Assembly: GCA_964036195.1 (NCBI GenBank)
Contig: OZ038458.1
Span: 21,775,832-21,839,831, forward strand
Direction of reading: 5' to 3'
Source: Sphaerolaimus hirsutus
Taxonomy: Eukaryota; Nematoda; Chromadorea; Monhysterida; Sphaerolaimidae
DNA length: 64,000 nucleotides
A program made the position numbers and the translations under genes. Positions 21,541-61,712 of this stretch are shown piece after piece; the first letter of the stretch is position 1, and each line of letters opens with the position of its first letter. Below the pieces are notes generated by a model. The model made no database searches and was not told the DNA's origin. It was given only the letters and a program-made list of their open reading frames with translations.

Positions 21541-21600
21541 ATACACATACATACATACATACAACAATACATACACATACACATACATACAATGTAAATA
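21541..21600. repeat. ATAC microsatellite
   Basis: Runs of CATACATACATA; a (TA)n run follows at 21752-21772. Confidence 0.85.
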
Positions 21601-22772: not shown

Positions 22773-22778
22773 TTTATT
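22773..22778 (-). terminator. Possible poly(A) signal (AATAAA on the - strand)
   Basis: TTTATT on the + strand, about 70 bp beyond the stop of the terminal exon, inside a CACTAGTTGACATC-type transposon end. The same arrangement occurs after the copy at 14.65 kb. Confidence 0.3.
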
Positions 22779-22848
22779 TGCGATGTCAACTAGTGTGTGG
22801 GCCCTTCGCGACACGTGCCCAAAAGTCTCACATCAAACGAAAACTCAA

Positions 22849-23080
22849 TCACTTCTTAGCCCTTCTCTTCACCAAACCACCAGCTTCGACAGACTCCGCC
22901 CTAGTCGCGGGTTCAGAAAACACTTCATCAAGTGCCGCAGCGGCATGCAGCCCGGACGTGCCGGCGTGCACGATGGGCGGTTCGGGCGTGCCGCTTTTGC
23001 TGCTATTCGCCGCGGAAAGTGCGTTGCTGGTGGATGAGGTGGTTGATGGCGCGGTGAACTTTGCCGCCGATTTGGGCAGC
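22849..23080 (-). CDS. Probable NBAS terminal exon (copy in repeat B)
   Basis: A GC-rich island in AT-rich DNA. Acceptor ACCCCCTCAAG, phase fits exon 38. Reads LPKSAAKFTAPSTTSSTSN ... ALDEVFSEPATRAESVEAG then LVKRRAKK and stop TGA 22851-22849. No family domain is recognised, so the link to NBAS rests on strand, phase and the lack of another candidate in between. It could instead be the last exon of an unrelated gene or a captured fragment. An almost identical copy lies at 14648-14879. Confidence 0.45.
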
Positions 23081-35000: not shown

Positions 35001-38000
35001 TGCGACCAACCAAGCGACGGGTGATGATCACCCGTCGAGACGCATAGAATGACAGTGAAATGACAGGGTGAATTCCGCATAGTATATTATTTGGCTTGAA
35101 CACAGCCGACAATGTGGTAAGAGTTTGCAGGTGACAGTGATCAAGGTTCAAAAATAATGCATTTGTCTATTGTAAATATTGATTTGAATTGTCCCAGGGC
35201 CTAAAATTCACAATTAAGCGAAATTTTAGACTAGCTCTGGTTTCGGGTCTGCCAGCCAAAAAGAATTCACAGCCCACAAGAATGCGAACAACCAGCCCTG
35301 CAATAACAGACAAACCTGCAACGCTGGCACAACGCCAAGTGCGTCGGCAGCTGGCTGCAGATTACTCGAGTTCAAATGCGGCGCTATTACTGGCCAAACA
35401 TCTTGGCCCGACGACAAATTGCGTAACAGTGCCAAATAATCGAGAGCTGAAAGCGTGAACAAGTGGATTTTGATGAAAAGTAGAATTTCCACTCACAAAA
35501 AATACTAAAAAAGGACGCAGAAACACATATTCTTGTCGAAGCACACACAACATATTATCACATAACAAACTGGAAGCAATCGATAATCACGAAATTATCA
35601 CCACAAGCAAAAATGCAGGCAGACGGAATATCAACTTCAACAAGCCACAAATCTTGTAAACACCAAATGCGCTAACACATAAAAACGCACCGGGACAAAT
35701 CTTGTGCAGCTGCTTGAGAGCCTCCCTGTGCGCATTGGCCGCGGCCTTCTCCCTTTCATCGGGCTGCAGCCTCGCCAAAACCTGGGGGCAGTCCCAGTCA
35801 CTGTAAAATGTCCTGTGCAAAGTACGTTTGCCATTTTACATGACTGTTGACACTTTGTATGACATTTGACATTTTACAGAGCATTTTACAGGGTCTGGGA
35901 CTGGCACCTGGTAGTAAAGCGCCACAAGCGCGTGGTCACTGCCGTCCAGCAAGGGGTACACTGATTCGCGGAGTTCCTTGACGGCGTCGAGCTGTCGCGA
36001 CGACATTTCGTCGAGCAGTCGGTGCCGCCGCACGCAGTTTTGTATCGCAGACGGCGGCAGACTGAAAAAAGTTGACAATGCTGACCAAAAAGTTGACAAT
36101 GCTGGCCGGCACACTAGTTAACACATGTGTGTCAACTGGTCTGTGTCAACTAAAATCTCGGCTTCACGTGTCTCAGAGCGATCTCCATATTATGCACATC
36201 TGGCAATATGTTGAAAAATAAATATTATGGCAAGTGCATTGGAAGCACATGATACTCTGCCCTCGCACTTATTTATGTCTCACGTTAGAAGCGTGCCAAT
36301 GGTGATAAAGCACGCGATTTTTGCATAAAAGATGAAAAAATCATTGTTGTGAATAAGCCAACGTATAGCGTTATAACGGAGATGGCTTTTATCACCTTTG
36401 TATGAAATTCGCATGCGTAAAAGAATTGTTGGCACGTTTCCAGCGGGAACCACGCGTGCAGGGTGTAAAGTGACTGGAGTATAATGAGTATTTACTTTTA
36501 CTCAAAAAGTACGCATGCTCGAGTACCGAGTAAATACGCATACGCATACTTTGAAAAAGTATCTGTACTCGCCTGTACGCTTACTTTTTGAGAGTACTCA
36601 AGTACAGTAGAGTAATTTTGCGAGTACAGAAAGAGTATTTTTTATATTCGAAGCCACTGCTTTTCATAGAATAAGAATACTTATTAATAAAGAAATAAAC
36701 TTTTTGTTGTCTAGCGTAAAGATTTAAAAGGCGCCCTTCTACTTTTTCCAGAAAGAAAAGGTAATTTTACTCGCTTTTTCCTGAGAGAGAAAATACTCGA
36801 ATTAACGCTTTCGAAATAAATATTTTACTCATATTTACTCGCAAAAGTAAAAATTTCTACTTTACGCTTTCTGTACTCGATGGGTGAGTAAAAACAAAAT
36901 ACTTTACGCATACTTTGAAAAAAGTTTGGTACTTTTAACAACTCTGATTGGGAGATAAGATTGCTCTGCGAAACCTAAAGCTGAAATCCGAGTTGACACT
37001 AACCAGTTGAACCCCCTTGCGTCAACTTGTCTGTGGATCGTTCATTTCAGCGTAGAAAACAAAGTCGCGGGTGTACCGCTCGAACGTACCCGGAATCGGT
37101 CATCAAGTAGGTCAGGTTCGTGCTGGCCATGGTCCACGCGTCCATGTCGTTCGCGTCGGCCAGCCGCTTCGCCGCCAGCCACGCCTCCGTGTCGCTCGTC
37201 CTGCACAAATGCGAGGACCGGATGCAGCCAGATTCATGCAGGGGGTGTTAGGGGGTGAAGGGGTCACCCCCTACAAATGCTCCAGTTATTTATCTATCTA
37301 GTTATCAATCTATTTCGCGGTTTCTCCCTTTTCTTCCTTGTGCACCTCAAAAAAGCCTACCGTATATAAATACTCGAATAATACCCCACCTTCAATAATA
37401 CACCACCTTGAATAATACCTCCCTCTTAGACGAGTGCGGAAAAAATAATCCCCCCTCGAATATTCCCCCCTTTAGGCATATGATAAAGGTTTTGCATCCA
37501 ATTTGAACAAAAATTGCACGTTATTTAATAAATAAAGCACATTTCATGAAATCAGTTTATAGAAACATGCTTAAATTTTTTGACGAAATAATAACCCCCC
37601 CCCTTGAATAATTCCCCCCTCGAATAGTCCCCTCAAAAAAAGCCTGACGAAAAATAATTTCCTGGGTGGGATTATTCGAGTATATACGGTACATAAATGG
37701 ATATGAACACCCAGAGAAGCTTCAGGCTATCTATCCGCCGAAGGGGCAATTTATTATTTATCTAAATGAACCCTCGCAGGGGTCCACATTTACAAGACTC
37801 TTGTCACGCAGAATGATTCACATGGGACGCACATGGCCAATCCTACGATGGTGTCGTTCCTGTACGACTCGTCCGTCGCATACCGCTGGGCATCAACATC
37901 TGCGAAATTGTAAAGTGTGAAAATTTGAATGGTGAAATTAGGCGCCAGTCCCAGACCTTGTAAAATGTAAGACCTTGTCAAATAAGTTTCAGATCTTATT

Positions 38001-41000
38001 CTAAAGGTACCCAAATCTTATGTAAACGTAAGATTTGGATACAAGACATAAGATTTACATACAAAAGAAAAAGATTTTGTTACTTTACAGGGTTTGTCTT
38101 TTACATGACAAATGATATTTTACAGGATCTTGTAAAATTCAACGATCCTGTAAAATGTCATCACACATGACATTTTACACGGTCTGGGACTGGCACCAGC
38201 ACTTGGTTATCACCGGCAAAAGTATCGGCTATCAATTTGTGCTGCCAGTCGCCGAGCGCCCGCTGCAACGTATTTACAGCAGCCTGTGCCCAATCGTTCG
38301 CATCGCTGGAATTGATAGCGGTGGAAACTGCGCTGCGAATCACGTCCAATGGGGGCGCAGAGAGAATTGCCGCGCAGCTAAATAGGGGATGGTGGAATTT
38401 ATCAAGTGCACAATAGACGGTGAAAGTCAGGTGCCACTAGGGTTGGCCGATGTTGATGTTTTTAAAAGTTTTTTTTAAACATCACGTCCGAAATGTGGGT
38501 TTTTTATAAAATCATCGGCCGGAATTTTTAGCACTAAGCACTAGGTATTTTGCAAAATTTTTGCGCGCAAGCGCGCAATTTCACACACAAATTGACATTG
38601 GTGGTTGTTTACATTGGTTTTGTGGCATTTTTAGTATCAAAGCATCCATTTCTATGTGCTACCATGGGTTTATAAGCCGTGGGTAATAAGCCATGTTGCT
38701 GTAGTATATAATGTTGAGGTTATGTGCTTCCATGTACATCCACAGTGTGAAACTTCACTCCCAAAGTAACAAGTTCCTTTTATAACCTTGTTTGATCACT
38801 ATTCCACTATGCCAAACTTCACCTGAAGTCACGAACATTCGACTATAAGGCGATATATGAACATGTCGATGAAAAATGGATATTTTTGACACAAATCACC
38901 ACTTATAATGCTATCCCATGGCTCCACAGCCATTATATGGTCATATATAACATCACAGAGTATTGCCGTTGTCTCATATACCTATGTATGTTGACACAAG
39001 GTCATATCTCGGAGCTTTTAAAAAAAACGTTTTTTATATAAAAAAGTTGTTTTTTTAAAAACATCGAGTTAAAAAAACGTTTTTTTTCCAACCCTAGGTG
39101 CCACTCTCATACCGTGTTAAATGTAATGTAAAATGTCATGCAGTGTCAAACGCCATGAAAGATGGCACATTGACACTTTGCATGACTTTTTAACGTGATA
39201 TTAGAGGGCATTTTACACAGTCTAGAAGTGGCCCTCGCTTATGCACTGACCGCTCATTTCTCATTTCGAGCGCCCAGCGCAGAGCGCAGACGTAAGCCAG
39301 CATCGGCATATCATCTGCACCTGGGTTGTGGGGAAAATACACCTATGGAATACCGTACAATGTCCATTGAAATATAATATAAAATGTGACTGGGCATATC
39401 ATATTTAACATTGTGTATACTCGGCTGACCGTATGCTATGCATTTTTCTGGAAGAAACACTCCATCATGACGTCAGCATTAATAAAATTAAAATAATTCC
39501 AGCAAAAAAAGAAAAACAGGACGGGAGAAAAACGTTCCTTGTTTCCACGTGACTCCGCCTTTTTCTTTTTCAAAATAATTTTCTTTTCGTGAACGTGCTA
39601 CATAAGTATTCAGTTCGCGCGTTATCGACCAAGACATAAATAATTTTGGGCGCATACTTTGCGGTCCGCCGAGTATACCATTTTAGATTTTACACGGTGC
39701 GGACCGGCAGGTGAACGGCATCAAATATTCATCCTTCACCAACCACAGATTTCCTTCAGCGTTTCAAAGCAACTCTCCACATCTGGAGAAGTCAAAGCGA
39801 TCAGCAAAGCAACGGTCATCAAAATTTCGGTGCTTCTTTTCCGCCCGTATGTGCGCGCCCACAGCGACAAAACTTGGCGCGATTCCAATTCAGACTGAAA
39901 TTGTTTGCTGGTGAAACAAATGGGAGAAGTGAAGATGCAAATAAATGTACCGTATAACCTCGAGTAAGTCCCTCCAATCCCCCCTCCCATGTTAGCTGAC
40001 TGGGAAAAAATAACTCCCCCTCTTTGATGGGTGGCAATGACGCCCGTGTATAAAAAAAAGTTTTAAGTAAGTTTTCTCTAAAATCATGTACTTTTTGCAG
40101 TTGATGTTAATTAACATTCATTTCATTGCATGAATTTCTATTCTGACTTGCATGTTTATGGAAAGATTTAATTGAACCCCACTCATACAATATATTGAAC
40201 ATGGATTTTACTTATATTCTGACACAGAAATAACTTCTCCCTTCGAATAACTCCCACCTCGAATAAGTCCCCCAGTCAAAAATAAACACAGAAAAACCAC
40301 AACAATAAAACTCCTGACCACTTATTCGAGGATATAAATACGGTAAACACGGAATGGCCCTACACACTACTTTTCACCGACCGATGTGAAAACTGAAATG
40401 GCGACATGGCGACACTCAGCCTACTCTTGCTGTATGCTATGTGTTTTAGTTTAAATTATTAAATTTAAACTTTCATTAATTTAAATTCTAATTTAAATAA
40501 AATAAAATCATTCAACCGCGTTTTTTAATTGCATTTGAAAAAATTTCAGTTTTCACACATGTCACGGTGAAAACTAGTGTGTGTAGGCACTATAGAACAC
40601 AGAACAATAACCAACGGATAACACGCGGCTGCTCAGACAAACCAATCGATACAGGTTGCTCACTTCAGCTACCAAGGGCTCAGCGGAATTTCGATCCGCA
40701 AACGCGTCACTGAAATGATGTCGCTTTGAAATTATTCCTAGAAAATTGGGCGCTTCTGATCGCGCACCTGTCATCAGAACAAGTTGGCACTTCACAAAAG
40801 AAAATGTCGGAAATAGGATCTGGCATTTGATCATCTTTCGCCAGCGCCTTCGTCAAACGCTCAATCACGCTGGCAGTCCGGAGTTTTCCCTTGTCAAAAT
40901 CCAATTCTCGCAATGTAGATTTAATGGCATTCGCCTTGACACAGCTGCAAAATCATTTTGTTATCTACAACCTGTGCCGGTACTCATCTAAACCAGGTGC

Positions 41001-53000: not shown

Positions 53001-56000
53001 GTGCCGCGCGCACAGCGTCTCCAGGTGGGCGCAGTGGCCGCGCCGCGCCGTATTGACGGTCAGGTCGGCGAGCGACAAGTCCCGCGACGCAGAGTAGACG
53101 CACATGTCCAAGGGGCACTGCGATTGAAATGAGTGATAGGTTCGCGAGAGAAATTACCGTATTTCCTCGAAATAACCCCCCCCCCCAACCATCGTTTAAC
53201 CCCTCTCAATATTCTCACACTGAAACATTTACCCCCAACAAGGGGTATTTCGAGGAAATACGGTAGATGAATTGTGGAAAATGAGTGTAGGAACAAGAAA
53301 AATTAAGTGCCCAAAATAGGAATTATAAATTAGAAAAAGGCGAACCTCCTCTGTGATGAGACTTCGCAAAATCAGCCGGTAATTTATGAGTCGGAAATGA
53401 ACACCGCAGTCGCGTAGATCGTCAGCACTCGGACTACAAAAATAGAAATAATTGCGCTGTCATTGAACGCGTATACTGTAGGAATGCAACGATATAACTT
53501 TTTGTTTCTAACGAGATTAAATTAATATGTAATATATATTCGATATTTATCATTGCAACTTTTTTACCGGTGTTTTTTCCAAAGGATTTTTTATATTTAA
53601 CCGGGTCGTTGAAAAAACGTTTTTCCATCCCTACTTGCAATTCTACCGATTCGTTTCAAACAACTTACTCTGCGTCCTCATTGCAAGCGCACACGGCTCT
53701 GGCAACTGCTTCTCGAGTGAGAAACAAGCCCAGCTCAAGCAGAGCCAAGCAGGCCTCTTCCGTGCCAGCAATGCGTCTTTGGCACTCTGCCAGCACCCAG
53801 GGCGCGTCTGAAATAAGTGCCTGCGAAAAATGATCGTTGAATACATTTGTTTTATCGATAGATTATCAATGTAAGATAAGATTACCAGATTCTCCTGCAC
53901 ACAATCGAAGCTGATTTCGGAATGCAGCCAGCGGTATTTGTAAACAACGTCCTTGTTCAAATCGAATTTCGACGCCAGAGCCAGTGCCGATGAATAGTCA
54001 CCAGTTTCGATCTGAAAAATTGCCAAAACATTGACAGTACTTTGAGATTGGACCCACAAGTGAAGTTCAGCATGGAATAGTGCTTAAATAACGTTGTAAG
54101 AAGACGCTCATACATTGACAGTAATGTTATACACTGTAGAAGTATATGGGAGCACCTTGGCTGGATATTATATACTACACTGCATATCACGGCTTTTTAT
54201 TACACGGTAGCATGAATAAATGCAATCTTTTACACTAAAAATGACCCAAAACCCATGAAAACACCACCAATGGTACCTAATGTGTATTGGAAAATTAAAT
54301 TAAAATCAGTTTCCACCCTGTGATTTTTTTATTTAAAAAAGATCAGTTTAAAAAATTCAAGTGCCAACCCTACCATGGTCCGATACATTTCCTGCGGCGT
54401 GGTCTGTCGGATTTCGTGCAGCGCGAACTTGACGCGCCGCACGGCCGCCTGCTCCGGATTGGGCATGTCGACTTCCTCGGCGCTGCGGCCGACCGCCGCG
54501 CCAATAGCCAACTTGATCCAGCCGTAGGCGATCAGTGCGGTCATCTTGCCCACCAGGGGGCAGTCCCGGACCCTGTAAAATGCGCTGTAAAATGTCAAAT
54601 GTCATGCAAAGTGTTTAAAGTCGTGTGAAATGCCCTGCAAAATGGCAACCGCGTTGCCATTTTGCAGGGCATTTTACATGACTTGAGACACTTTGCATGA
54701 CATTTGACAATTTGCAGCGCATTTTACAAGGTCTGGGGCTAGAACCAGCGCCAACTTGCCGCCTGATTGTGTTGTTGCTTCGTCCTTCCCACTTGTGCCG
54801 TCGAGTTCGATCGTCTGCATTGACATCGAATACAAAATTACGCTAAAGTGACAAATTATGAAGTGAATAGGTAGTGTCAAATTTTTGTCAACTGAGACAT
54901 CGATTGCGTCAACTAAACACTAGTTGACGCTGAATTGACACTAATTTCGATGTCAACCAGCGTGTCTGGCGTCATTGTGGAGAAAGTACCAACAGCTGAG
55001 AAACCGCGCTGTCTTAAAAAAAGCCCTTTATCATGAGCCCCCCCCCAAAAAAAAAACACACACACACACACCGCCAACACCAAAAAAAACCGACCTCCAG
55101 CACGTGACACAATCCGACGGCGCGCGGCCGGCCGCTGTGCAGCAGCGAGGCGCCCGGCGAGAACTGGCGCACGATCGAGTCGGCCGCCGGCACGCGGGAA
55201 AGGAACAAGTCGGGGTCGTTTACGGGCGTGATGCAAAAGCCGCCGTCGGCGCGCATCACGGCGAGTTCCTGCGGCGGCATAACCAATTTGAGTGTGACAC
55301 GCTATTTGGGATAGAAAAAAAACACTTTTTCAACGACCTGGTTTAAAAAACGTTGTTTTTTCGCCAAAAAAGCGTTTAAAAACGAGTTTTTTTGAAAACC
55401 CGGCCATCCCTTGACACTATTGGATTATTTTAGCTTACACAAGCAAAACTCTCAGTCGATCACATGACTTCTTGAAAAAAAAGTTGATCACATGAGTACA
55501 TAACTTCTTGAATGAAAAAGTGTTCAGCGCGTACATTTCAAGCCGCCATAAGTTTCCTTAAAAATTGCGACATTGGCACACAGGGCTCAAGAATCCCAGC
55601 CAATAAAGGCCAATGCAAAGTAATGAACCTCAAACCCAACTTTCAACCCAATAAGCGAACCGAGTCCGACCACCAGTGCGCCGCGACGGGCAAAGCGCTC
55701 GGGCTGCACACGAACGAAGGCACGGCGGCGGCGCGACGCAGCGACGGCAGCTGCAGCACCAACACGTCGCCCAAACTGGTCAGCGCCGCCGCCAACGACT
55801 CGCTGTCATTGGTGCACAGCGACACGACTGCGGCCTGTGGACCAAGGTTGTTAAAAGTACTGAAAATTAACTTTTTTTTAATTAAACGTAAACGTAAAGT
55901 AATTTTTTACTCACCCCTGAGTACAAGAAAACGTAAATAATGTTTTTATACTTTTACACTGCGCAAAACGTGAGTAAAATACACTTTTCCAGAAAAAATG

Positions 56001-59000
56001 TAAAAACGAGATCTTTCTGGAGAAAACGTAAAAACGGGCGTATTTTCAAGGCGTATACATCAAGGATGTGTTTTTCTCTCCTGATACGTATTTCTTAGGA
56101 GAATTTCTTATGTTTGTCACTTTCTGTTCGGCAAAATGACACTTTCTGTTCCTTAAAATACATTTTCAAAAAGAAAGCGAGTAAGTCAGTACCGGTATTT
56201 TTTGCAAGGAAACGTAAACGTATTTACGCAGTACTGGAGTATACGAATTTATGGAGTAAACGTAAATACGTTTTAACAACTATGCTGAGCACGGCGTGAG
56301 ATTTAGCGGGGGAATAGTGGAATAAATCGGGTTTGGGCTTGTCTAGTAAACACACCTGCGTAGACGCGAAGCAGGGCATCCAATCGACCCAGCCGTCCGG
56401 CTTGTTCAACTGCGAGAGAATACAAGATCGGTTGACTGAAATAATAAACCTAGGTTGGGGCGTAAAATTTCTATATTACATATCGTTTTCCAAAGGCATA
56501 ATTTTTCTGTTTCTGATTTCCCGCCGCTAATTTTTTCCGTTTCTGTAGCCATTTTTCCGGCTTATTTTCCATTTTCAGGTAATTTTCCATTTTCCAGCTT
56601 AACTTTCTGTTTTCTGTTTCGGCCAAACTGGCAAGTTGCATGCATCAGCAAGTTTTCAGCAAAATTTATGTGACTTTTTGGAGCAATTTTTATATATGAC
56701 AAAAGTGAAAGCAATTTTTTCTATTTCCAGTAAAAATTGCAATTTTTTGTTCAAATTTTGCTTTCTATTTCCTGCAGTTTACTTTCGCAAAATTTTTTTT
56801 TGACACCCTACTCAGGGCTCTAAATCTCAAAAAAAAACGCGACAACCCGCTCACCATAGTAAGCGCGGGCACCGCAGCAGCAGTAGCCAAAGCGTGCGGC
56901 TTCTCATCCACCAGTCGATACAACATCACGCCGCACTCTCCAGCACCAGGGCGTTCAGCATCAAATTCGCGCCGGTCGTCGGCGCCGTACTCGGCCGCGA
57001 ACACGACCAGGGGGCAGTCCCAGACCCTGTAAAATGTCAAATGTCACGCAAAGTGTCAAAAGTCATAAAAAATGCCCGGTAAAATGGCTAACGTACGTTT
57101 GCCATTTTAGAAGACTTTGGCAATTCGCGTGACATTTGACATTTGACAGGACATTTTACAGGGTCTGGGACTGGCACCAGGCCGCGCTGGGCGCACACGG
57201 CGGCAGCGGAAATGCAGTCGGCGCGCAGCAACTCCGCGCACAGGTCCACCGCGTAGAGGGGGTGGTAGCCGGACAGGCGGCTGCGTCGTGTAGCTATCAT
57301 AATGGCATGGATAACAACGGGGGAGAGCCCAACGTCAAGTTTTAACTCCAGTTCAAAGTTCGCAAATTGTATTTCTACCTTTGATGAACATGCAAGGTAG
57401 AAATACAATGGAAACACGCGTTGGCCACTGTTTGTGCACTAGAATCAATGTTTGTGAGATTGGGCCCACACATACTAGTAGGGTTCAAACGGGACCGCGG
57501 TCCCGGTACATGGTTCGGCAAAAAGTCGGGACTGGGGCGGTCCCGGTCCCGGTCCCGACACCCCAGTCCCGGTCCCGGTCCCGACAATTCAAAAAAGCCA
57601 GTCCCGGTCCCGGTTAGGGTTGGGACGATATATCGTATCGAATATCGAATATCGGATATCGACTATTTTTTCATATCGAATATCGAATATCGATATCGAA
57701 AATTTTGAAAAAATATCGAATATCGACCATTTTTTCGATATTTTCGATATTCTATACTCCCTGGACCTGACTTCAAATAAGCCAGGAATGGCACTATTAG
57801 AAGGCGATTTCATAAGCAATTTTAACAAATTTTGCGCGCAAGCGCGCACTTTGTTCTCACATGACAGGTATTTTTGTTTCAGCACTTGCGGCAGCATCAA
57901 ATCTTGTGCAAATGCTCTCTCAGATGTTCACATAAGAGTATATGTATGTTTAATAGCTACTTACACCATGGAAACATCAATGGCACCATGACATGGCACC
58001 TATAAATGGAGCTGGCACCTTTTCCTTACCACATCTGTCACACTTTAAAATCATTTTGTCATTTTGATCATTGTGTGCCATTTAAATTTGTATCATCTAC
58101 TTTTCAGTAGAGATGATCAGTTGGGTTTGTGATCAAATGGAAAGGCAATATGCCAAATGAGATATGCCTGCTATACCAAAAGCAAAATATCGAAATATCG
58201 AAAATATCGAAATATTGATATCGAATATTGAGCATTTTTTAATATCGAATATCGAATATCGAATATCGATATCGAGGGTCCATATCGTATCGATATCGAA
58301 TATCAAGTTTCAGAAAAAAATATCGAATATCGAATATCGATATCGAAAAGTCATATCGTCCCAACCCTAGTCCCGGTCCCGGTCCGGACCATCCAGTCCC
58401 GGTACCGGTCCCGGAATTTTATAGTGATCCCGACAAGGGATGAAGAAAAACGTATTTTTAATGACCTTTTCAAAAAATTTGCCAGAAATGCCACTTTTCT
58501 AAAGATTACCTATGTAGGCACATCTAAAAAAATTTTTGTGCGAGCGAGCAAATACCCACCCAATGATTACATGTATTTTTCTGTAATATAACAGTGTTAG
58601 AAAGGTTCCCAACATGATTCTAGTACGAAATATTTGTAGGTATATAAAGATACCTAGATAGTAGACAAGACTGCCATGGCATTGGCGCCTACAAATGGCT
58701 CTATTTCTTAACTATAGGGTCAAAATTTAGGGGGCATTACTTGAATAATGTTATAAGAAAAGGCTAATACATTGAGCGTGGTCCTTCACACAGTGGAGGT
58801 GTGTGGAACATTGGCTGGATATTACGTAAATACCAACAAGGTTCAAACAAGACCGCGGTGCTGGTACATGGTTCGGCAAATCCTAGTCCCGGTCCCGACC
58901 CCTCAGTCCCGGTCCCGGTCCCGACAATTGAAAAAAGCCAGTCCCGGTCCCGGATCCGGTCCCGACCCACCAGTCCCGGTCCCGGTCCCGACATTAGAAA

Positions 59001-61712
59001 ATTTCTGGTCCCGGTCCCGGTCCGAAAAACTGGTCCCGTTTGAACCCTACATACTAGTTGACATCGCAAATTAGTCACTAGTTGACATCGCAAATTGGTG
59101 TCATCGCAAATTGGCGTCAATTCAACTAAGTTTTTACGCATTACACTTAACAGAAACAATGAAAATTGATTTTATTTATCAACAATAATTTAGTTGACAC
59201 AAATTTCGATGTCAACTAGCGTGTGTAAGGCCACTGGAACAAAACCCTCGGAAATATTGACACGTCCCGCCAAAATCGCCACTCACCCGCAATAAAACGC
59301 CCGGAGCACGCCAGAATACTGCACCGTAAACAACCGATCGCACCACCTAGCCTCGCCCACCATGGGCGCCGTCCTGACATGGCACAGTGCCAAGTTAGGT
59401 CTGAACCGCGTGTCGACGCTGCCCTCCAGGGGAATGCTGTAGCAGTAGCTGCCGGTGGAGTCCATCACGTCGAGCACAGGCGCCGACCGCGACACGATCA
59501 GGAGACTGCCGCTGGCCGACCAGTGGGCGCCCGCCCAGTCCGCGTGCGCGTCCGGCGGCACTGAGACGTGGGGCAATGGTTATTTTGAGCACTGGGCGAG
59601 CGACAGGCACAGATAGAGGCCATCAACGAAAAATCAAGGGAATAAAAATACCTTATTCGCTCGTATTTCCCCTGGGGAGTTTTTTTGCATCACTTTATTG
59701 AGGGAGGAACTATTCGAGGGAGGAACTAATCGAGGGGGGGGTTTCAATGGGGGGGCTATTCAAGACAGAGACGGAATTATTCAAGCAATTACGGTAGTTT
59801 GATACAGAAATCAAAAGTAAAGGCATATTTACACACTTGTAAAAGATTGTTTTTGTATAAATTATTTATGTAAGCCCCGGCGGGGCTACAACGTTAGATT
59901 AAAATGAACGCGCAAAATCCTTCCACTCCGCTGTGGCTACAATATGAACACAAAAATGGCTCACACAAAAATCATGGCTATTATATGAACACAAAAATGG
60001 CTAATACAAAAATCATCAAAGCCTATGTACCTCTGGTTTGAGCAACAACTGTCGTTGAGTCATGCGCCGTCCAAATATCCAACTCCCCATTTTGCTTGAT
60101 CAAGGAAACGAGGTTGTTCACTCTGAAATTGACATATAAATATGGAAAATTGGCGTGCAGAATTGGAAAACCAAAATGGCTAATACATCACCGGTCCATA
60201 AATACAACTTCGGCTACTCCCACCACCTACCCAAATTCTACTGATATCTGCCACATCCCATTTTTTCCCATATCACATTACGTCTAGTTCGCTTTTGGTT
60301 CATTTTGGTTCAATGAAACCAAATGTCAACTGGTTGCAATCATGTCGCAAATGAACCCGTAGTGTTGGAAATCCGCGCATGAAGCACACGTATACAATCA
60401 CGCGCAGTGTCACCTACCAATTTTTAATTGGTATCGGAATCAGTTGACATTAAACGCCGTCAACTACAGTGCGCGCAGATATTTTGCTTTGCATGCGGCG
60501 GTCGGCGCAAGCTCCGCCCACTTTCGTGTTAATGCCCACTACAGTGTGCGCAGAAATTTCTGTTTTTTATTTTTTTTTCGGCCGTCTAAACAACCAGACG
60601 AAGAGACCCCGTACGGGAACTCGGCAGCCAGCCAAAAACAGCTGACCGAAACTTGTTTCGAAATCGATTAAATAAAATAGACTAAAAATAGGTATATAAC
60701 CATCTATATAGACGAAAATAGCGAAAATACCTCTCTGCACCTCAAAATATATGCATTACCTGCGAAATGTAAGATATATAGCAATTTAACTTCATTGTTG
60801 AGCCACACACAAAAGTGACATGCCTGACCGAAAATGCGTGCTTAGCGCTCGCGGGCATTCACACCAAAGTGGGCGGAGCTTATGCGGACCGGTGCATGCA
60901 AAGCAAAATATCTGCGCGCACTGTAGCGCTAACCCCCAAAATCACGAACGTTCTGTCAGGCTCGCTTTTTTTGTGTGTGAGCTCAATAACGACACTTAAA
61001 TTTCTACGATTTCTTACATTTGACAGAGAACGCAGATAATTTTAGCCCCCTGTGCCTACGCTCGACCCACAATTCCCATTTTTAAGCGCGTGATGGGCCT
61101 CGAAAGGTTCGTAAAAATCACAAGTTTGTATACGGAAAACGACACGCCCGGCCGAGCAAAATTCACGTGCAGTTTTAAGATGAAGGCTGGCGCGAGTGCG
61201 CGGAGTAATAGTGGCACATGGCTCACTGCCAATAGGCACAGGAATTTCTGCGCGCACTGTAGTTGCACAAACCACCGGCCCAACCCAGCATCACAACCAA
61301 AAACCCCACTCACGCAGACACCGCAAAGCGGTACAGCGGCTGCCGTTCCCTGAACCCCTTCACAGGCGCCCCCGGCCCCACTGCAGCGGCGCCTACATGC
61401 CGCAGAGGGTTGGGCGCGACCACTTCGCAATCAGCCAGGGGGCAGTCCCAGACCCCGTAAAATGTCATGCAAAGTGTCAAATGACATGCAGTGTCAAAAG
61501 TCATGTAAATTGTTCTGCAAAATGGCAAACGTGTTTTACATGACCTTTGACACTTTGCATTACACTCGACATTTTACACAGCATTCCACAGGGTCTGGGA
61601 TTGGTACCAGCTCGCACAGCGCCGCGTGTTTGTGCAGCAGGTCGGCCGGCGACGCGCCGCCGCAGCTCAAACTGCCCGTTGAGGATGATGTCGATGAACG
61701 CGGTCGATTCAT
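22849..61712 (-). CDS. NBAS: NBAS homologue (39-exon model)
   Basis: Homologue of NBAS, the large subunit of the NRZ (NBAS-RINT1-ZW10) tethering complex that acts with syntaxin-18 in Golgi-to-ER transport; NBAS also has reported roles in nonsense-mediated decay. The - strand exons listed separately join in phase to 5421 nt (1806 aa plus stop). Anchors to human NBAS (from memory, 2371 aa): propeller segments (HWWSDS against NWWSDS), TPQEMYRTM against TPEELYQRK, DYSSALALASKFDL against EYEEALSLAHTYGL, QQPELQRFR against AQPELLRFR, YEKSVELVLRAAREY against YEKSIDLVLAASREY, DVDAQRYATDESYR against GVDVQRFTADDQYK, and LMTDSG against LFTDSG. The C-terminal few hundred residues of the human protein are not found; a short KRRAKK tail replaces them. 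Five exons are split by family A hairpin elements, whose removal restores the frame. The start is taken at ATG 61712 (context CACCATGA) and is not certain. Confidence 0.88.
23575..25640. repeat. Minisatellite of CTCGAATTATCCCCCCGCGTG units
   Basis: Tandem units of roughly 33 bp (CCGCCTCGAATTATCCCCCC + GCGTGAATTACCTA). Interrupted by a CGGCGGACAT-type insert (about 24525-24810) and the element 24888-25309. The unit resembles the interior of TACCGTATT elements. Confidence 0.85.
24888..25309. mobile_element. TAGGGTT-ended element with ATTTGATAT interior
   Basis: TAGGGTTCGAATGATATG ... CATTTGTACCCTA, target duplication CCCACATG on both sides. Interior is an array of TTGATATTCAATATT-type words. 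Inserted in the minisatellite. Confidence 0.84.
25640..27170. other. AT-rich transposon debris
   Basis: Holds a CAGCAGGCATCACACTTTG-type fragment, ACTTTTACTCACC-type fragments and a degraded TACCGTATT element (26410-26830). No coding exon seen. Confidence 0.45.
27173..27290. mobile_element. Short CAGAGTTGT-ended hairpin
   Basis: CAGAGTTGTGAAAGTG ... TTTTTTAACAACTCTG; same family as 36470-36950 and 55849-56285. Confidence 0.6.
27945..28137. mobile_element. CTCGGCGGACATCACAC element
   Basis: TATACTCGGCGGACATCAC ... GCGGTCCGCTGAGTATA; about 190 bp, complete. Confidence 0.65.
28343..29472. mobile_element. TAGGGTT-ended element with AAAAAACGTTTTTT ends
   Basis: Target duplication GACACACT (28335-28342, 29473-29480), right end CATCGGCCAACCCTA. 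Hosts the nested element 28717-29152. Confidence 0.84.
28717..29152. mobile_element. hAT-like element, same family, nested
   Basis: CAGGGACGTATCCAGG / CCTGGATACGGCCCTG, target duplication ATTACCTC on both sides. Nested in the TAGGGTT element 28343-29472. Confidence 0.87.
29560..29786. repeat. GGCGCC-rich element, one clear end
   Basis: Arrays of GCGCCAGGCGCCAGAGAAAA ending GGCGCCATTCCATCACTA. Confidence 0.65.
30191..30787. mobile_element. CCGGCCGTAAAGTA element (copy 1)
   Basis: GTAAGCCCGGCCGTAAAGTA ... TTTACGGCTGGACCATCCCC, carrying a nested AGTACTTTTAACAACTCTG element. Confidence 0.65.
30900..31990. mobile_element. Large foldback
   Basis: Arms: GGGGTCTGGGCTTTGACTAA / CCCAGACCCCAAACC and CTCCCAGTCCTGAGATAAGG / ATCTCAGGACTGGGGGATT. 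Related blocks are inside 9321-10994. Confidence 0.65.
32180..32467. mobile_element. Compact foldback
   Basis: TAAACACCTTCGTCAAGCAG ... GACTGGCAAGGTGTTTA; a minimal version of 9321-10994. Confidence 0.65.
32618..33063. mobile_element. hAT-like non-autonomous element, CAGTGGCGTAGCCAGG ends
   Basis: Termini CAGTGGCGTAGCCAGG / CCTGGCTACGCCACTG and an exact 8-bp target duplication GTTTAAAC (32610-32617, 33064-33071). Contains a GGCGCC cassette and poly-G/poly-C tracts; no transposase. Confidence 0.88.
33971..34112 (-). CDS. NBAS: NBAS exon 38
   Basis: Acceptor CTGCGCCCCAG. Reads ADRLDDKHFMTLVAKTLRVV then AVSDFKAAVSAYAKQHGHR, comparable to human KEMTRKAIKTVKHFIE and YADTLNHLEKSLAHLETL. Donor GTTGGT in phase 2; GTGCGC eight bases later is an alternative. 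Confidence 0.75.
34495..34907. mobile_element. CCGGCCGTAAAGTA element (copy 2) in NBAS intron 37
   Basis: CAGCCGTAAAGTAAACCCGG ... TTACGGCCGGACCATCCCC; begins 11 bp from the exon 37 donor. Confidence 0.7.
34918..34999 (-). CDS. NBAS: NBAS exon 37
   Basis: Acceptor TTGGTCGCAG. Reads VSIELVYAIYAFGQFDSALA and SVCFTLL. The donor GTGCTG at 34917 is chosen by phase; GTCTGT at 34936 is a stronger site but breaks phase with exon 38. Confidence 0.68.
35316..35446 (-). CDS. NBAS: NBAS exon 36
   Basis: Acceptor ACGCTTTCAG, donor GTTTGT. Reads ALDYLALLRNLSSGQDVWPV and ADALGVVPALQ, against human PLEALEPVLSSQNILSISKL. Confidence 0.86.
35691..35781 (-). CDS. NBAS: NBAS exon 35
   Basis: Starts after the family A element with a canonical acceptor (GCCCCCAG|GTTTTG). 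Reads VLARLQPDEREKAAANAHRE then ALKQLHKICP. YYQ-VLARLQPD aligns without a gap to human YYFTLLENC. Donor GTGCGT. Confidence 0.87.
35782..35907. mobile_element. Family A element as NBAS intron 34 (canonical GT-AG)
   Basis: CCTG on the + strand on both sides (35781-35784, 35907-35910), CAGG in the coding direction. 126 bp. Because of the A in the target copy, the intron becomes CAG|GTGCCA...CCCCCAG|GTT. Confidence 0.86.
35908..36061 (-). CDS. NBAS: NBAS exon 34
   Basis: Acceptor CTTTTTTCAG. Reads SSRQLDAVKELRESVYPLL, DGSDHALVALYYQ, against human MVKYIYPTIGGFDHERLQYY. Ends CAG|GTGCCA at a family A element. Confidence 0.9.
36470..36950. mobile_element. Element ending TACTTTTAACAACTCTG
   Basis: Built of AAGTACGCATGCTCGAGTAC and TTTACTCGCAAAAGTAAA words; in NBAS intron 33. 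Confidence 0.5.
37090..37200 (-). CDS. NBAS: NBAS exon 33
   Basis: Acceptor ATTTGTGCAG, donor GTACGT. Reads EAWLAAKRLADANDMDAW and TNLTYLMTDSG, against human ESVYSIAISLAQRYSVSRW and LEFLFTDSG. Confidence 0.9.
37358..37691. mobile_element. TACCGTATA-ended element in NBAS intron 32
   Basis: TACCGTATATAAATACTCGA ... TATTCGAGTATATACGGTA. Confidence 0.72.
37833..37899 (-). CDS. NBAS: NBAS exon 32
   Basis: Acceptor AATTTCGCAG, donor GTGCGT. Reads VDAQRYATDESYRNDTIVGL, against human VDVQRFTADDQYKRETILGL. Diagnostic match. Confidence 0.9.
37941..38195. mobile_element. Family A element (long form) in NBAS intron 31
   Basis: Ends GGCGCCAGTCCCAGACC and GGTCTGGGACTGGCA; inner CCAAATCTTATG inverted repeat as in the copy at 12.7 kb. 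Its terminus is coding in exon 31 and supplies the donor. Confidence 0.78.
38181..38377 (-). CDS. NBAS: NBAS exon 31 (ends inside a transposon terminus)
   Basis: Acceptor CCCCTATTTAG. Reads APPLDVIRSAVSTAINSSDA to GDNQVL, then VPVPD encoded by a family A terminus. The donor GTGTAA lies inside the element; this is the only arrangement found that keeps phase into exon 32. NQVLVPVPDHVDAQR aligns gapless with human AQILQGLRKGVDVQR. Confidence 0.74.
38438..39096. mobile_element. TAGGGTTGG-ended element in NBAS intron 30
   Basis: TAGGGTTGGCCGATG ... CCAACCCTA, target duplication GGTGCCAC on both sides; same family as 28343-29472 and 47630-48330. Confidence 0.86.
39097..39236. mobile_element. Degraded family A element in NBAS intron 30
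   Basis: GGTGCCACTCTCATACC ... AGTCTAGAAGTGGC with TGTCATGCAGTGTC / GACACTTTGCATGA arms. A later element (38438-39096) inserted at its end and duplicated GGTGCCAC. Confidence 0.65.
39251..39314 (-). CDS. NBAS: NBAS exon 30
   Basis: A 64-nt exon, acceptor CCAGGTGCAG, donor GTCAGT. Reads DDMPMLAYVCALRWALEMRN, in the place of human LSLQLAAYYYSLQIYARL. A degraded family A element lies 15 bp into the following intron. Confidence 0.76.
39744..39907 (-). CDS. NBAS: NBAS exon 29
   Basis: Acceptor TTTCACCAG, donor GTTGGT. Reads FQSELESRQVLSLWARTYGR and LMTVALLIALTSPDVESCFE, against human DMTLALAYLLALPQVLDANRCFE. Confidence 0.85.
39948..40345. mobile_element. TACCGTATA-ended element in NBAS intron 28
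   Basis: TACCGTATAACCTCGAGTAA ... CTTATTCGAGGATATAAATA then CGGTA. Confidence 0.7.
40360..40590. mobile_element. TACACACTACTTTTCACCG element
   Basis: Inverted ends TACACACTACTTTTCACCG / CGGTGAAAACTAGTGTGTG. Confidence 0.65.
40768..40944 (-). CDS. NBAS: NBAS exon 28
   Basis: Acceptor GATTTTGCAG, donor GTGCGC; both phases fit the neighbours. Reads NAIKSTLRELDFDKGKLRTA and MPDPISDIFFCEVPTC, a divergent linker in the family. Confidence 0.76.
40975..41235. repeat. Foldback of GTGCTCATCT / AGATGAGCAC words
   Basis: Left half repeats GTGCTCATC, right half the complement AGATGAGCACCGGG. In NBAS intron 27. Confidence 0.7.
41312..41394 (-). CDS. NBAS: NBAS exon 27
   Basis: Acceptor GCACCACAG, donor GTCAGC. 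Reads EDDLFALWYFVLRACDPERL then LDIADEF, against human RQELMAFALTHCPPSSIELLL. Confidence 0.82.
41461..41661. mobile_element. CACACACAGTTGAC / TCAACTAGCGTGTG element
   Basis: About 200 bp, internal TTCATTGTTTCTGTTAGGTG. Same family as 43086-43293, 7833-8028 and the ends at 59060-59232. Confidence 0.65.
41708..41929 (-). CDS. NBAS: NBAS exon 26
   Basis: Reads NYRHPKKLLELAALLHIEEL, then QKDGPCAVDFALQLAHLNF and CHDLLVDGMAKN, against human CYKQSTKLLGLAELLRVAG and ALRFHDYKAASMHCQELM. The 5' border (acceptor AATCAAAG) is chosen by phase and is uncertain by a few codons. Donor GTTGGT. Confidence 0.78.
42038..42514. mobile_element. hAT-like element, CAGGGGTCTCC ends
   Basis: Termini CAGGGGTCTCC / GGAGACCCCTG with 8-bp target duplication TGTTAGGG (42030-42037, 42515-42522). 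GATAGATAG-rich interior. Confidence 0.84.
42744..42881 (-). CDS. NBAS: NBAS exon 25
   Basis: Acceptor TATCGGACAG, donor GTCTGT (a later GTGTGT donor would add six residues). Reads LELQRELDMLTALPLLAELG and LPLKLRLIDDKFDIVK, against human IQEELDLIQAVGCLEEFGVK. Confidence 0.88.
43086..43293. mobile_element. CACTGGTTGATATC / CAACTAGCGTGTG element
   Basis: Just 3' of NBAS exon 24 on the - strand; ATCACATAGGAAAGTTGAAA internal word shared with 41461-41661. Confidence 0.6.
43384..43500 (-). CDS. NBAS: NBAS exon 24
   Basis: Acceptor TTTCACCCACAG, donor GTCCGT. Reads LWYEKSVELVLRAAREYADA and NVQLARRC, against human VSYEKSIDLVLAASREYFNS and MDLARCC. Very strong match. Confidence 0.92.
44222..46283. 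mobile_element. 2-kb element with GTACACACTAGTTTACC ends
   Basis: Ends GTACACACTAGTTTACC / CAGTAAACTAGTGTGCG; flanks share ACAATTTTA. Interior has many GCGACGCGTCGC words and AT-rich DNA. A 97-codon - strand frame (44609-44902) is open but unlike any protein I know. Confidence 0.6.
46284..46916. other. NBAS intron 23, remaining part
   Basis: Partial CACTAGTTGACATC-type ends (about 46440-46600) and a poly-C tract; no exon seen. Confidence 0.4.
46917..47003 (-). CDS. NBAS: NBAS exon 23
   Basis: Starts directly after the family A element (CCCCCTG|GTCGCG). Reads VAALLAAGDTSSLQYALEF. DWCTSAL-VAALLAAG aligns without a gap to human DACYEIFTESLLCSS up to the shared MH. Donor GTGGGT. Confidence 0.84.
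47004..47171. mobile_element. Family A element as NBAS intron 22
   Basis: CCAG on both sides (47003-47006, 47171-47174). 168 bp palindrome. GT...TG in the coding direction. Confidence 0.85.
47172..47310 (-). CDS. NBAS: NBAS exon 22
   Basis: The acceptor TGGAAAAG is poor but gives the required phase 2. It lies beside a GGCGCC element that may have changed the site. Reads GATLISLPQITFNATYKLPN to SADWCTSAL, ending at a family A element (CTG|GTGCCA). Confidence 0.72.
47330..47480. mobile_element. Short GGCGCC-type element
   Basis: TAGTGACGGAAAAGCGCC ... GGCGCTTTTACCATCACTA; 151 bp, adjacent to NBAS exon 22. Confidence 0.7.
47630..48330. mobile_element. TAGGGTTGG-ended element in NBAS intron 21
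   Basis: Target duplication GCTAAACC (47622-47629, 48331-48338); right end CATCGGCCAACCCTA. Confidence 0.86.
48391..48605 (-). CDS. NBAS: NBAS exon 21
   Basis: Acceptor ATCGCGCAG, just downstream of a degraded family A terminus. Reads DAQLDSILEALSTLDYYDI, SELCECVGDRHRAGTLLTRL, against human MVDQLEQILSVSELLEKHGL and ARKLMVRLTRH. Donor GTGGGT, phase 2. Confidence 0.85.
48609..49013. mobile_element. Family A element (long, diverged) in NBAS intron 20
   Basis: GAGGGAGCAGTCC ... GTCTGGGACTGACACCAG with CCAAATCTTATG core. Exon 21 uses a separate AG 3' to it, so this older copy sits in an ordinary intron. Confidence 0.68.
49181..49306 (-). CDS. NBAS: NBAS exon 20
   Basis: Acceptor TCATTTCAG, donor GTAGAT. 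Reads RRGKSNGADLLVFSLEELYS and SVASACVRECSLTGDQAAV, in the position of human QLMAIALECIYTCERNDQL. Confidence 0.8.
49642..50063. mobile_element. hAT-like element, same family
   Basis: CAGGGACGTATCCAGG / GGATACGGCCCTG, target duplication GGTGAAAG on both sides. Nested in the CCGGCCGTAAAGTA element. Confidence 0.87.
50318..50936. mobile_element. TACCGTATT-ended element, ATCAAAGCACCC interior
   Basis: TACCGTATTTCTCCGATCAA ... TTGATCGGAGAAATACGGTA, with GGGTGCTTTA words. Confidence 0.78.
51208..51378 (-). CDS. NBAS: NBAS exon 19
   Basis: Acceptor AACACCCAG, donor GTTAGC. Reads VVQRVAPLLSDL, RLVLREFLVSRSRQNLNLI and MVPLLMK, against human AYQWMVPFLHRCE and LLKEYLVTLAKGDLKFPLKI. Confidence 0.85.
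51420..51684. mobile_element. TAGGGTTGGGAA-ended element with GGGTTCGGGT arrays
   Basis: TAGGGTTGGGAATTTC ... GGTTCCCAAACCCCA; flanks CTGATTGA / CTGAAGGA are 6 of 8 identical. In NBAS intron 18. Confidence 0.7.
51717..51851 (-). CDS. NBAS: NBAS exon 18
   Basis: Acceptor GATGTTCAG, donor GTGGGG. Reads ELDGCLTEALAYERFVLQ and DPLALIDALLRD, against human NLVTLETLVYEARCDVTLTL and EKLRLLM. Confidence 0.86.
51925..52057 (-). CDS. NBAS: NBAS exon 17
   Basis: Acceptor ACCTTTCAG, donor GTGACA. Reads GVNPDVETISEWLKWRAG and HLVVAWYKHAVESLGFQ, colinear with human LTVEKVMDWYQTRAEEIEHY. Confidence 0.88.
52425..52589 (-). CDS. NBAS: NBAS exon 16
   Basis: Acceptor CCACTTTCAG, donor GTTCGA. Reads SEYMSSDLIQCEALMNLI and VLYDQQPELQRFR, against human FLYAAQPELLRFR. 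Confidence 0.88.
52805..52893. mobile_element. Short TAGGGTTGGGAA-ended element
   Basis: TAGGGTTGGGAATATC ... GGTTCCAACCCCA, flanks CCACCCAC / GCACCCAC. In NBAS intron 15, ending 12 bp from the donor. Confidence 0.7.
52906..53117 (-). CDS. NBAS: NBAS exon 15
   Basis: Acceptor TTTCAATCGCAG, donor GTAAGT. Reads ASRDLSLADLTVNTARRG, CARHGSVLLEHWLPVLACLP, against human ESNVQALEILFTYHGSDLLPH. GC-rich. Confidence 0.87.
53155..53264. mobile_element. Minimal TACCGTATT-ended element in NBAS intron 14
   Basis: TACCGTATTTCCTCGAAATA ... TATTTCGAGGAAATACGGTA; 110 bp, clean inverted repeat. Confidence 0.8.
53346..53433 (-). CDS. NBAS: NBAS exon 14
   Basis: Acceptor ATTTTTGTAG; donor GTTCGC is weak but phase-required. 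Reads DPSADDLRDCGVHFRLIN and ILRSLITEE, in the position of human CRRKLLTYLDRLATYEEIL. Confidence 0.78.
53669..53820 (-). CDS. NBAS: NBAS exon 13
   Basis: Acceptor TTTTTCGCAG, donor GTAAGT. Reads ALISDAPWVLAECQRRI and LALLELGLFLTREAVARA, against human KKRSWVLHECLERVP and KELLQYGLKGTD. Confidence 0.88.
53886..54011 (-). CDS. NBAS: NBAS exon 12
   Basis: Acceptor GCAATTTTTCAG, donor GTAATC. Reads IETGDYSSALALASKFDL and DVVYKYRWLHSEIS, nearly colinear with human EYEEALSLAHTYGLDTDLVY. One of the strongest family matches. Confidence 0.9.
54061..54372. repeat. Fragment of the CATCGGCCAACCCTA-type family (NBAS intron 11)
   Basis: Contains the family's internal words (ATACACTGTAGAAGTA, ATATTATATACTAC) and ends GTGCCAACCCTA exactly at the exon 11 donor. 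Confidence 0.65.
54374..54553 (-). CDS. NBAS: NBAS exon 11 (start of Sec39 region)
   Basis: Begins after the family A element (CCCCCTG|GTGGGC). Reads VGKMTALIAYGWIKLAIG and ends FALHEIRQTTPQEMYRTM, against human LVSLRSTTPEELYQRK. The donor GTAGGG coincides with the TAGGGTTGG terminus of another transposon. Confidence 0.85.
54554..54745. mobile_element. Family A element as NBAS intron 10
   Basis: CCAG on both sides (54553-54556, 54745-54748). 192 bp; centre AACCGCGTT, with long arms of high identity. GT...TG in the coding direction. Confidence 0.84.
54746..54814 (-). CDS. NBAS: NBAS exon 10
   Basis: Acceptor GTCAATGCAG. Reads TIELDGTSGKDEATTQSG ending GKLAL at a family A element (CTG|GTTCTA). 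This is the low-complexity linker between propeller and Sec39 region. Confidence 0.72.
55095..55268 (-). CDS. NBAS: NBAS exon 9 (propeller)
   Basis: Acceptor GCCGCCGCAG, donor GTCGGT followed by a T run. Reads ELAVMRADGGFCITPVND, continuing WWSDS as the next propeller strand (human AVTLARCSGALTV), then SRVPAADSIVRQFSPGAS. Confidence 0.84.
55661..55834 (-). CDS. NBAS: NBAS exon 8 (propeller)
   Basis: Acceptor TGGTCCACAG. Reads AAVVSLCTNDSESLAAAL, VLVLQLPSLRR and HWWSDS, matching human FKMSLSPDGMLLAA, WAIPSLKQQ and NWWSDS. The donor GTTCGC is weak but gives a gapless match into exon 9. Confidence 0.82.
55849..56285. mobile_element. GTTGTTAAAAGTACTG-ended element in NBAS intron 7
   Basis: GTTGTTAAAAGTACTGAAAA ... 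TACGTTTTAACAACTATGC; AAACGTAAACGTA interior. Confidence 0.6.
56356..56409 (-). CDS. NBAS: NBAS exon 7
   Basis: A 54-nt exon with acceptor CTCTCGCAG and donor GTGTGT, phase 0 on both sides. Reads LNKPDGWVDWMPCFASTQ. Similarity to the family is weak; support comes from splice sites, phase and GC content. Confidence 0.62.
56855..57007 (-). CDS. NBAS: NBAS exon 6
   Basis: Starts directly after the family A element (CCCCCTG|GTCGTG). Reads VVFAAEYGADDRREFDAE and GVMLYRLVDEKPHAL. Joined to exon 5 it gives AVCAQRGL-VVFAAEYG, gapless against human AIYHPGHRLLLVGGCE. Donor GTGAGC. Confidence 0.8.
57008..57177. mobile_element. Family A element as NBAS intron 5
   Basis: CCAG on both sides (57007-57010, 57177-57180). 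170 bp imperfect palindrome. GT...TG in the coding direction. Confidence 0.85.
57178..57280 (-). CDS. NBAS: NBAS exon 5
   Basis: The acceptor CGACGCAG is chosen because it gives the phase required by exon 4. Reads RLSGYHPLYAVDLCAELLRA ending AVCAQRGL, directly at a family A element (CTG|GTGCCA). Confidence 0.76.
57366..57410. repeat. Short hairpin ATTGTATTTCTACCTT
   Basis: ATTGTATTTCTACCTT followed after 13 bp by AAGGTAGAAATACAAT; upstream of exon 5 in the - strand intron. Confidence 0.8.
57479..59049. mobile_element. TAGGGTT-ended element with GGTCCC arrays
   Basis: TAGGGTTCAAACGGGACC ... GGTCCCGTTTGAACCCTA, target duplication CATACTAG on both sides. Interior arrays of CCCGGT. Carries the nested element 57615-58369 and is inserted in a CACTAGTTGACATC-type element. 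Confidence 0.86.
57615..58369. mobile_element. TAGGGTTGGGACG-ended element with ATATCG arrays
   Basis: TAGGGTTGGGACGATAT ... ATATCGTCCCAACCCTA, target duplication GTCCCGGT on both sides. Interior arrays of AATATCGATATCG. Confidence 0.87.
59287..59560 (-). CDS. NBAS: NBAS exon 4 (propeller)
   Basis: Acceptor CACGTCTCAG, donor GTGAGT. Reads DWAGAHWSASGSLLIVS, VLDVMDSTGSYCYSIP and LFTVQYSGVLRAF, aligning with human QWRRVAWSYDCTLLAYA and ELLVINYRGELRSY. Strongly GC-rich. Confidence 0.87.
60031..60122 (-). CDS. NBAS: NBAS exon 3
   Basis: Acceptor AATTTCAG, donor GTACAT. Reads VNNLVSLIKQNGELDIWTAH, comparable to the first propeller strand of human NBAS (VNKQINWHLVLASNGKL). Confidence 0.82.
60467..61268. 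mobile_element. Foldback with CAACTACAGTGCGCGCAG ends
   Basis: CAACTACAGTGCGCGCAG ... CTGCGCGCACTGTAGTTG; contains CGGCAGCCAGCCAAAA, also seen near 18486. In NBAS intron 2. Confidence 0.65.
61314..61435 (-). CDS. NBAS: NBAS exon 2
   Basis: Begins exactly after a family A element (CCCCCTG|GCTGAT) and reads ADCEVVAPNPLRHV...RERQPLYRFAVS. Canonical donor GTGAGT at 61313. Phase 2 at its end fits exon 3. Confidence 0.72.
61436..61607. mobile_element. Family A element as NBAS intron 1
   Basis: CCAG on both sides (61435-61438, 61607-61610). 172 bp, arms TGTCATGCAAAGTGTC / GACACTTTGCATTACA. As an intron on the - strand it is GT...TG. Confidence 0.82.
61608..61712 (-). CDS. NBAS: NBAS exon 1 (putative start)
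   Basis: ATG at 61712-61710 in good context (CACCATGA); reads MNRPRSSTSSSTGSLS...LLHKHAALCEL. An in-frame open stretch continues upstream to an acceptor-like CTCTCCAG, so an earlier coding exon is possible. It ends at a family A element with CTG|GTACCA. Confidence 0.6.

Follow-up and report, generated by a model that had tools for sequence, protein, structure and literature searches.

Few rules of splicing are as strict as the AG at the 3' end of an intron. Among introners that stem from DNA transposons, families are described that carry a 5' splice site, take the 3' site from the target duplication and leave the length of the mRNA mostly unchanged; the survey in question (Gozashti et al. 2022, PMC9860276) reports introners from no more than two groups of animals and notes GC and GA donors as rare. 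In the green alga Micromonas, the introners IE-B and IE-D, with 25 and 6 members of very variable length, have GT-TG ends (PMC3879977). The introner elements of Amoebophrya contain inverted repeats and a possible hairpin joining the exon ends, with short direct repeats at the boundary and non-canonical, widely varying dinucleotides (PMC7789003). The NuwaI transposons of the PHIS superfamily, which live in animal hosts, are characterized by a CWG target duplication and by terminal inverted repeats (TIRs) usually starting with GGG (PMC4482050). Fritillaria has large numbers of non-GT-AG introns, most often with AG/AC or AG/AT ends, and its canonical introns make up 5% (PMC13326754). Human TG acceptors belong to U2-type introns; Szafranski et al. 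(2007, PMC2374985) conclude that they are purely alternative sites beside AG and need an AG no more than 28 nt away.

The family of elements described here, from the nematode Sphaerolaimus hirsutus, combines known introner, hairpin and NuwaI features in an animal and mixes GT-AG and GT-TG introns; the genes encountered, among them NBAS, a FAT4-like cadherin, KCC and OSCP1, likewise point to an animal host. Like the introners of PMC9860276, it consists of many near-identical introns with TIRs and a target duplication; unlike them, about half of its acceptors are TG, a type that the consulted passages of that survey do not mention. It shares GT-TG ends with IE-B and IE-D of Micromonas, but the host here is an animal, the element is a short hairpin, and GT-AG and GT-TG introns arise from one element according to its target. 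Inverted repeats and 3-5 nt direct repeats at the boundary are found both here and in Amoebophrya, as far as the latter is described in PMC7789003; there the terminal dinucleotides vary at both ends, whereas the copies studied here start with GT, a start partly built in by their selection, and end in AG or TG. The likeness to NuwaI, as outlined in PMC4482050, lies in the CWG duplication and the animal host; of the two ends, one starts with GGG (GGGGCAG) and the other with GTGC (GTGCCAG). The comparison with the Fritillaria introns of PMC13326754 is loose, as AG/AC or AG/AT ends with YAY triplets are absent here, the introns start with GT and end in CWG, and 31 ordinary introns of the gene discussed below could all be modelled as GT-AG. 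With the human TG acceptors, as summarized in PMC2374985, the elements have in common an AG within 28 nt, but here TG would be the acceptor by which the protein stays intact. The entries listed by a literature search outside which most subscription papers lie included no GT-TG introners from an animal; those of Micromonas were the only published ones among them.

The window, a 64-kb stretch of DNA, contains on its minus strand a gene (34937..61712) that is NBAS-like, as judged from its predicted product. The model runs from the ATG at 61712 to exon E33, with the C-terminal part further left, and its frame is open over 1,700 codons once the element copies are removed exactly. The product matches the Pfam families Nbas_N (28.5 bits, cut-off 27) and Sec39 (25.5 bits, cut-off 22), the former over residues 78-271; no NBAS homologue was found in the protein collection or the PDB. 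The 31 other introns of the model are all GT-AG, their boundaries having been picked by eye to fit GT-AG and the frame. In the NBAS stretch beyond the modelled part, a one-base frame problem was seen by eye at about 34100-34200; no splice choice seen by eye mends it, and it may reflect an assembly error, an unrecognised intron or a mutation.

The original prediction placed five elements within coding exons of this gene, each flanked by a 4-bp target copy and removable together with one such copy. All five are present, on the minus strand, and their removal keeps the frame open in every case. With boundaries marked by a caret, element intron 1 (61436..61607, 172 nt) reads CTG^GTACCA...CCCCCTG^G and lies in exon E1; element intron 2 (57008..57177, 170 nt) reads CTG^GTGCCA...CCCCCTG^G and lies in exon E4, within the Nbas_N match, which runs across its junction; element intron 3 (54554..54745, 192 nt) reads CTG^GTTCTA...CCCCCTG^G and lies in exon E8; and element intron 4 (47004..47171, 168 nt) reads CTG^GTGCCA...CCCCCTG^G and lies in exon E19. 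These four have the predicted CTG boundaries and correspond to GT-TG, while element intron 5 (35782..35907, 126 nt, exon E31) has a CAG target (CAG^GTGCCA...CCCCCAG^G) and corresponds to an ordinary GT-AG intron. The description of the elements as being without normal splice sites was overstated, in that the donor is GT and about half of the copies end in AG. Use of the nearest AG, placed at 19 nt, had been expected to break the frame; this is the case at 57008 and 54554 but not at 47004, where the internal AG lies 18 nt before the junction and adds six extra codons in frame. At 61436, the distance to the last internal AG is 79 nt. Each of the four GT-TG sites has GT-AG alternatives that stay in frame but gain or lose codons. 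For NBAS alone, a GT-TG reading is therefore likely but not forced, since GT-AG splicing with small indels would also keep the frame.

Two older related elements on the minus strand of the same gene are ambiguous. Exact removal keeps the frame at 48616..49009 (394 nt, in or next to exon E18), but so does a canonical reading from the donor of E17 to the acceptor GGGTAG^CGG; the same applies to 37940..38196 (257 nt, after exon E28), where a canonical GT-AG intron from GCCG^GTGATA to CGCAG^ATG is available, both canonical readings having been identified by eye. These two elements were therefore rejected as evidence for exact removal.

Fifteen occurrences of the end motif with at most two mismatches lie in the window, against 0.5 expected, and the family extends throughout the genome. 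A search for element ends and boundary dinucleotides, which had been proposed as a check, returned 1,981 exact copies (989 + 992) of one 17-nt end in the 348-Mb genome (762 contigs), and none of the reversed control. CTG and CAG targets are both common: exact 19-mers, counted over the whole genome and not confined to exons, carry CTG 722 times and CAG 850 times before the 5' end, and CTG 732 times and CAG 989 times after the 3' end. The motif was not found in viral contigs, a collection from which records near the window's own genome may be excluded. The same genome contains at least 163 matches to the DDE_Tnp_4 transposase family, on many contigs; no autonomous partner, which for NuwaI would have a DDE transposase and a Myb/SANT protein, was linked to the ends of the hairpin elements. 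Many of these matches have near-identical scores and contain four TGA, as though the transposase genes were of recent origin and had an intron at that point.

For closer analysis, 80 loci (L001-L080) of the 100 listed places, all on contig 1, were taken together with the window. A copy was accepted if it had both ends, the 3' end with no more than two mismatches and the 5' end with no more than five to GTGCCAGTCCCAGACC and closer to GTGC than to GGGG, and if its target copies differed at no more than one base. Removal of copies with identical flanks left 81 oriented copies, among which some double counting persists: L043/L047 and L037/L038 represent gene duplicates, and L013 is counted with two 3' ends. 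All but one (80 of 81) start with GT, partly because the selection was made on likeness to the GTGCCAG end. The target pairs (5' copy/3' copy) are CTG/CTG in 29 copies, CAG/CAG in 27, CTG/CAG in 8, CAG/CTG in 1 and other combinations in 16; identical CWG copies are thus present in 56 of the 81, and identical CAT in 2 more. The duplication is a 3-bp CWG in a CCWGG-like setting, usually followed by G. The predicted 4-bp duplication was rejected, the fourth base being a preferred neighbour that is often unlike between the two copies. A 189-nt consensus derived from 44 copies folds as a near-perfect hairpin of -164.6 kcal/mol, in which only four bases at each end (GTGC and CCCC) and a five-base loop are unpaired. 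An internal AG lies 19 nt upstream of the 3' end in 48 of 58 copies.

Coding context was called by a codon-usage score trained on the NBAS model and applied to the joined flanks with a threshold of 15, a rough measure that rests on our own gene model and an arbitrary threshold. By this score, 45 of the 81 copies lie in sense-coding flanks and 6 in antisense (sign test, p = 2e-8), with 30 in neither; part of the antisense six may in fact be sense-coding. The threshold is reached on either strand by 16% of 2,000 random positions in L001-L060, and by 106 of 390 CCWGG sites (loci of at least 2 kb, element flanks left in) as compared with 51 of 81 elements. The 45 sense-coding copies end in CAG (24), CTG (20) or CCG (1), and the coding copies have diverged by about 6-7% (median) from the consensus.

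The exactness of the joins was assessed against homologues. Twenty of 46 listed joined open reading frames, chosen by eye, were compared with Pfam; 11 gave a match above the cut-off and 9 did not. The junction is spanned in 7 of the 11 matches (OSCP1 twice, AA_permease, Aa_trans, AMP-binding, STAG and Srx) and lies outside the match in the other 4 (two cadherins, LRR and sterol-sensing). The insertions in cadherin (FAT4-like) genes were accordingly rejected as evidence on the join, as the Pfam matches stop before or start after the junction. At the OSCP1 site with a CTG target, which would be GT-TG, 42 residues fall on 42 profile positions (63 bits), and at the OSCP1 site with a CAG target 50 residues fall on 50 positions. 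AA_permease is equally exact, with 54 residues on 54 positions, while Aa_trans (PAT1) places 140 residues on 139 positions with one net gap, Srx 106 on 104 and STAG 44 on 46; AMP-binding, with 95 residues on 114 positions, says little on the join.

Joins were also compared with solved structures, BCKDHA and Na,K-ATPase having been chosen because they were recognised. BCKDHA, at a GT-TG site, aligns over 55 residues without a gap through the junction, and KCC, cohesin SA and Na,K-ATPase, all now CTG/CAG, are likewise gapless. The PDB match of PAT1 (GT-TG) is gapless around the junction, with only about eight aligned residues before it, and NHL repeats at a GT-TG site give weaker evidence, as a two-residue gap lies at or near the junction. 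An empty site is provided by a KCC paralogue with an uninterrupted exon, which matches the joined exon over 102 nt with 86% identity and crosses the junction without gaining or losing a base; in place of CTG it has CTA as its own target. Four more KCC places match only from the junction onward, and in the three of them that were inspected (L082, L083 and L084) decayed element ends with CAG as the 3' copy were recognised by eye at the junction. The KCC-type transporter paralogues (L026, L081-L084), one without the element and at least four with it at the same point, some decayed, constitute a good series to date the insertion.

The two target copies differ in an asymmetric manner. Among sense-coding copies with CTG as the 5' copy (n = 26), the 3' copy is CTG in 19, CAG in 6 and CCG in 1, whereas all 16 with CAG as the 5' copy retain CAG at the 3' end. 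The 3' copy has thus changed in 7 of 26 against 0 of 16 (Fisher test, p = 0.03), a count that treats the 5' copy as the original target and includes only pairs with at most one mismatch. Six of the seven changes are to CAG, for which p is 1e-5 if all nine single changes are equally likely and 0.007 if this is assumed for just the three changes at one site. Three further sense-coding pairs have another 5' copy (AAG/CAG, CCG/CAG and GTG/CTG). Over all 81 copies, the discordant pairs CTG/CAG and CAG/CTG stand at 8 to 1 (p = 0.04). Exact ends paired by coordinates on contig 1 to about 32 Mb, which are partly the same copies, give CTG/CTG 15, CTG/CAG 3, CAG/CAG 21 and CAG/CTG 0. Across the whole genome the 3' end has CAG more often than the 5' end does, but the difference is marginal (p = 0.054) and adds little.

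Many similar copies at new positions in coding exons, TIRs with a target duplication and an uninterrupted KCC paralogue identify the elements, with near certainty, as an introner family. There is strong support, now from the whole genome, for the predicted family of transposon-derived introns that are excised exactly from coding exons, removal being inferred from sequence. What the data back directly is the family with its ends, the CWG duplication, the exonic bias to the sense strand and the exactness of the joins against homologues. These features probably reflect non-autonomous MITEs, NuwaI-like in the PIF/Harbinger-related PHIS superfamily, that become introns in coding exons and are removed by the spliceosome, GT-TG copies included. 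The element, starting with GTGCCAGTCCCAGACC, would bring its own 5' splice site GT, and the duplicated target would supply the last dinucleotide of the intron, so that CAG on the sense strand gives GT-AG and CTG gives GT-TG. Removal would happen in RNA, with a U2-type spliceosome acting at TG as well as at AG, and the near-perfect hairpin may help by bringing the two weak splice sites together. As published human TG acceptors work only near an AG within 28 nt, the AG 19 nt upstream may help the first step, with TG serving the second. GT-TG copies would then have been gradually improved to GT-AG.

Of the candidate mechanisms originally put forward, non-canonical spliceosomal introns fit best, with GT contributed by the element. 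The spliceosome is favoured over orientation-blind hairpin excision or DNA elimination because sense insertions outnumber antisense ones by 45 to 6 and six of the seven changed 3' copies of the CTG class are now CAG; neither SOS splicing nor DNA elimination predicts the bias or the change. Several findings count against the spliceosome. None of the 31 canonical donors in the NBAS model scores as low as the consensus donor CTGGTGCCA, the fold leaves little unpaired sequence for a branch point, and six coding-scored insertions are antisense. In addition, human TG acceptors, in the account of PMC2374985, are only alternative sites, while TG here would be the main site, although the AG at 19 nt fits their 28-nt limit. 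A bolder proposal, which we regard as less likely than not, is that hundreds of GT-TG introns are spliced out constitutively by an animal spliceosome because the hairpin, rather than AG recognition, presents the 3' end. Such a structure-guided choice of the 3' splice site would allow any CWG target to serve as acceptor, with refinement to AG at a later stage.

SOS splicing needs inverted repeats able to form an RNA hairpin, and the inverted repeats of the elements form a predicted one. It is expected to operate without orientation dependence, but the coding insertions, despite a nearly symmetrical hairpin, are strongly biased to the sense strand. An excision of this kind from the mRNA, independent of the spliceosome, would proceed by base pairing of the repeats, endonuclease cleavage at the foot of the hairpin and ligation of the exons, the sequence of the ends being irrelevant. 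The strength of the 189-nt hairpin, the weak donor and an exact removal independent of AG would all agree with it, and a review portrays SOS splicing as the excision of transposable elements from animal mRNA with ligation by RTCB (PMC13247085). The changes of the 3' copy to CAG in the CTG class and the lack of a difference in hairpin strength between TG and AG coding copies (p = 0.42) also speak against SOS-like excision, which we consider improbable.

Still less probable is ordinary GT-AG splicing everywhere, in which the CTG copies would use a nearby or internal AG and gain or lose a few codons. Retention of the element leads to a stop in all 20 TG coding copies, and in 15 of the 20 splicing at the last internal AG throws the message out of frame and in each case runs into a stop. 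Within 45 nt, 16 of the 20, including all four in NBAS, do have a GT-AG alternative that is in frame and free of stops, always with codons changed, gained or lost. The remaining four, namely L011 (OSCP1), L013, L063 (BCKDHA) and L065, have none, and the exact join in OSCP1 and BCKDHA reproduces conserved residues gaplessly. For PAT1, using the nearest alternative would insert six residues where the alignment has no gap.

Programmed DNA elimination, by which the elements would be present in the sequenced (germline) DNA and lost from somatic cells, would also remove the element and one target copy exactly if the excision were precise; since it would ignore gene orientation and gives no reason for a one-sided change of CTG to CAG, it appears very unlikely. 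That the interrupted genes are disabled alleles or pseudogenes, as the frame problem near 34.1 kb in NBAS might suggest, is hardly credible given a modelled frame otherwise open over 1,700 codons, the 45 of 81 copies in sense-coding flanks of many genes and the divergence that the coding copies have already accumulated.

If the spliceosome removes the elements, one transposon family has set much the same intron before CAG and CTG hundreds of times, which amounts to a natural paired experiment on the needs of the acceptor and makes the rules of intron recognition directly testable. The family points to introns gained by transposition in an animal, a kind of host from which few introners are reported, and suggests how a poor but tolerated intron may turn into a standard one. 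Gene prediction restricted to GT-AG would misread many genes of Sphaerolaimus hirsutus.

Outside the NBAS-like gene, a copy of the same family with a CAG target lies on the minus strand at 5312..5492, with flanks not scored as coding in this orientation. It is found just upstream of a GC-rich open frame at 5500-5800 on the plus strand, to which it is antisense and which resembles an exon of a different gene. Scans of the window against Rfam (gathering thresholds) and for tRNAs gave nothing. Large, near-identical direct repeats (95-99%), spaced about 7-8.5 kb apart, occupy 8522-23061 and include duplicated hairpin elements of a sister subfamily at 12662 and 19880. A minisatellite of degenerate units of about 35 nt, rich in CCCCC and GTGAATTACCTA, lies at 23596-25588.
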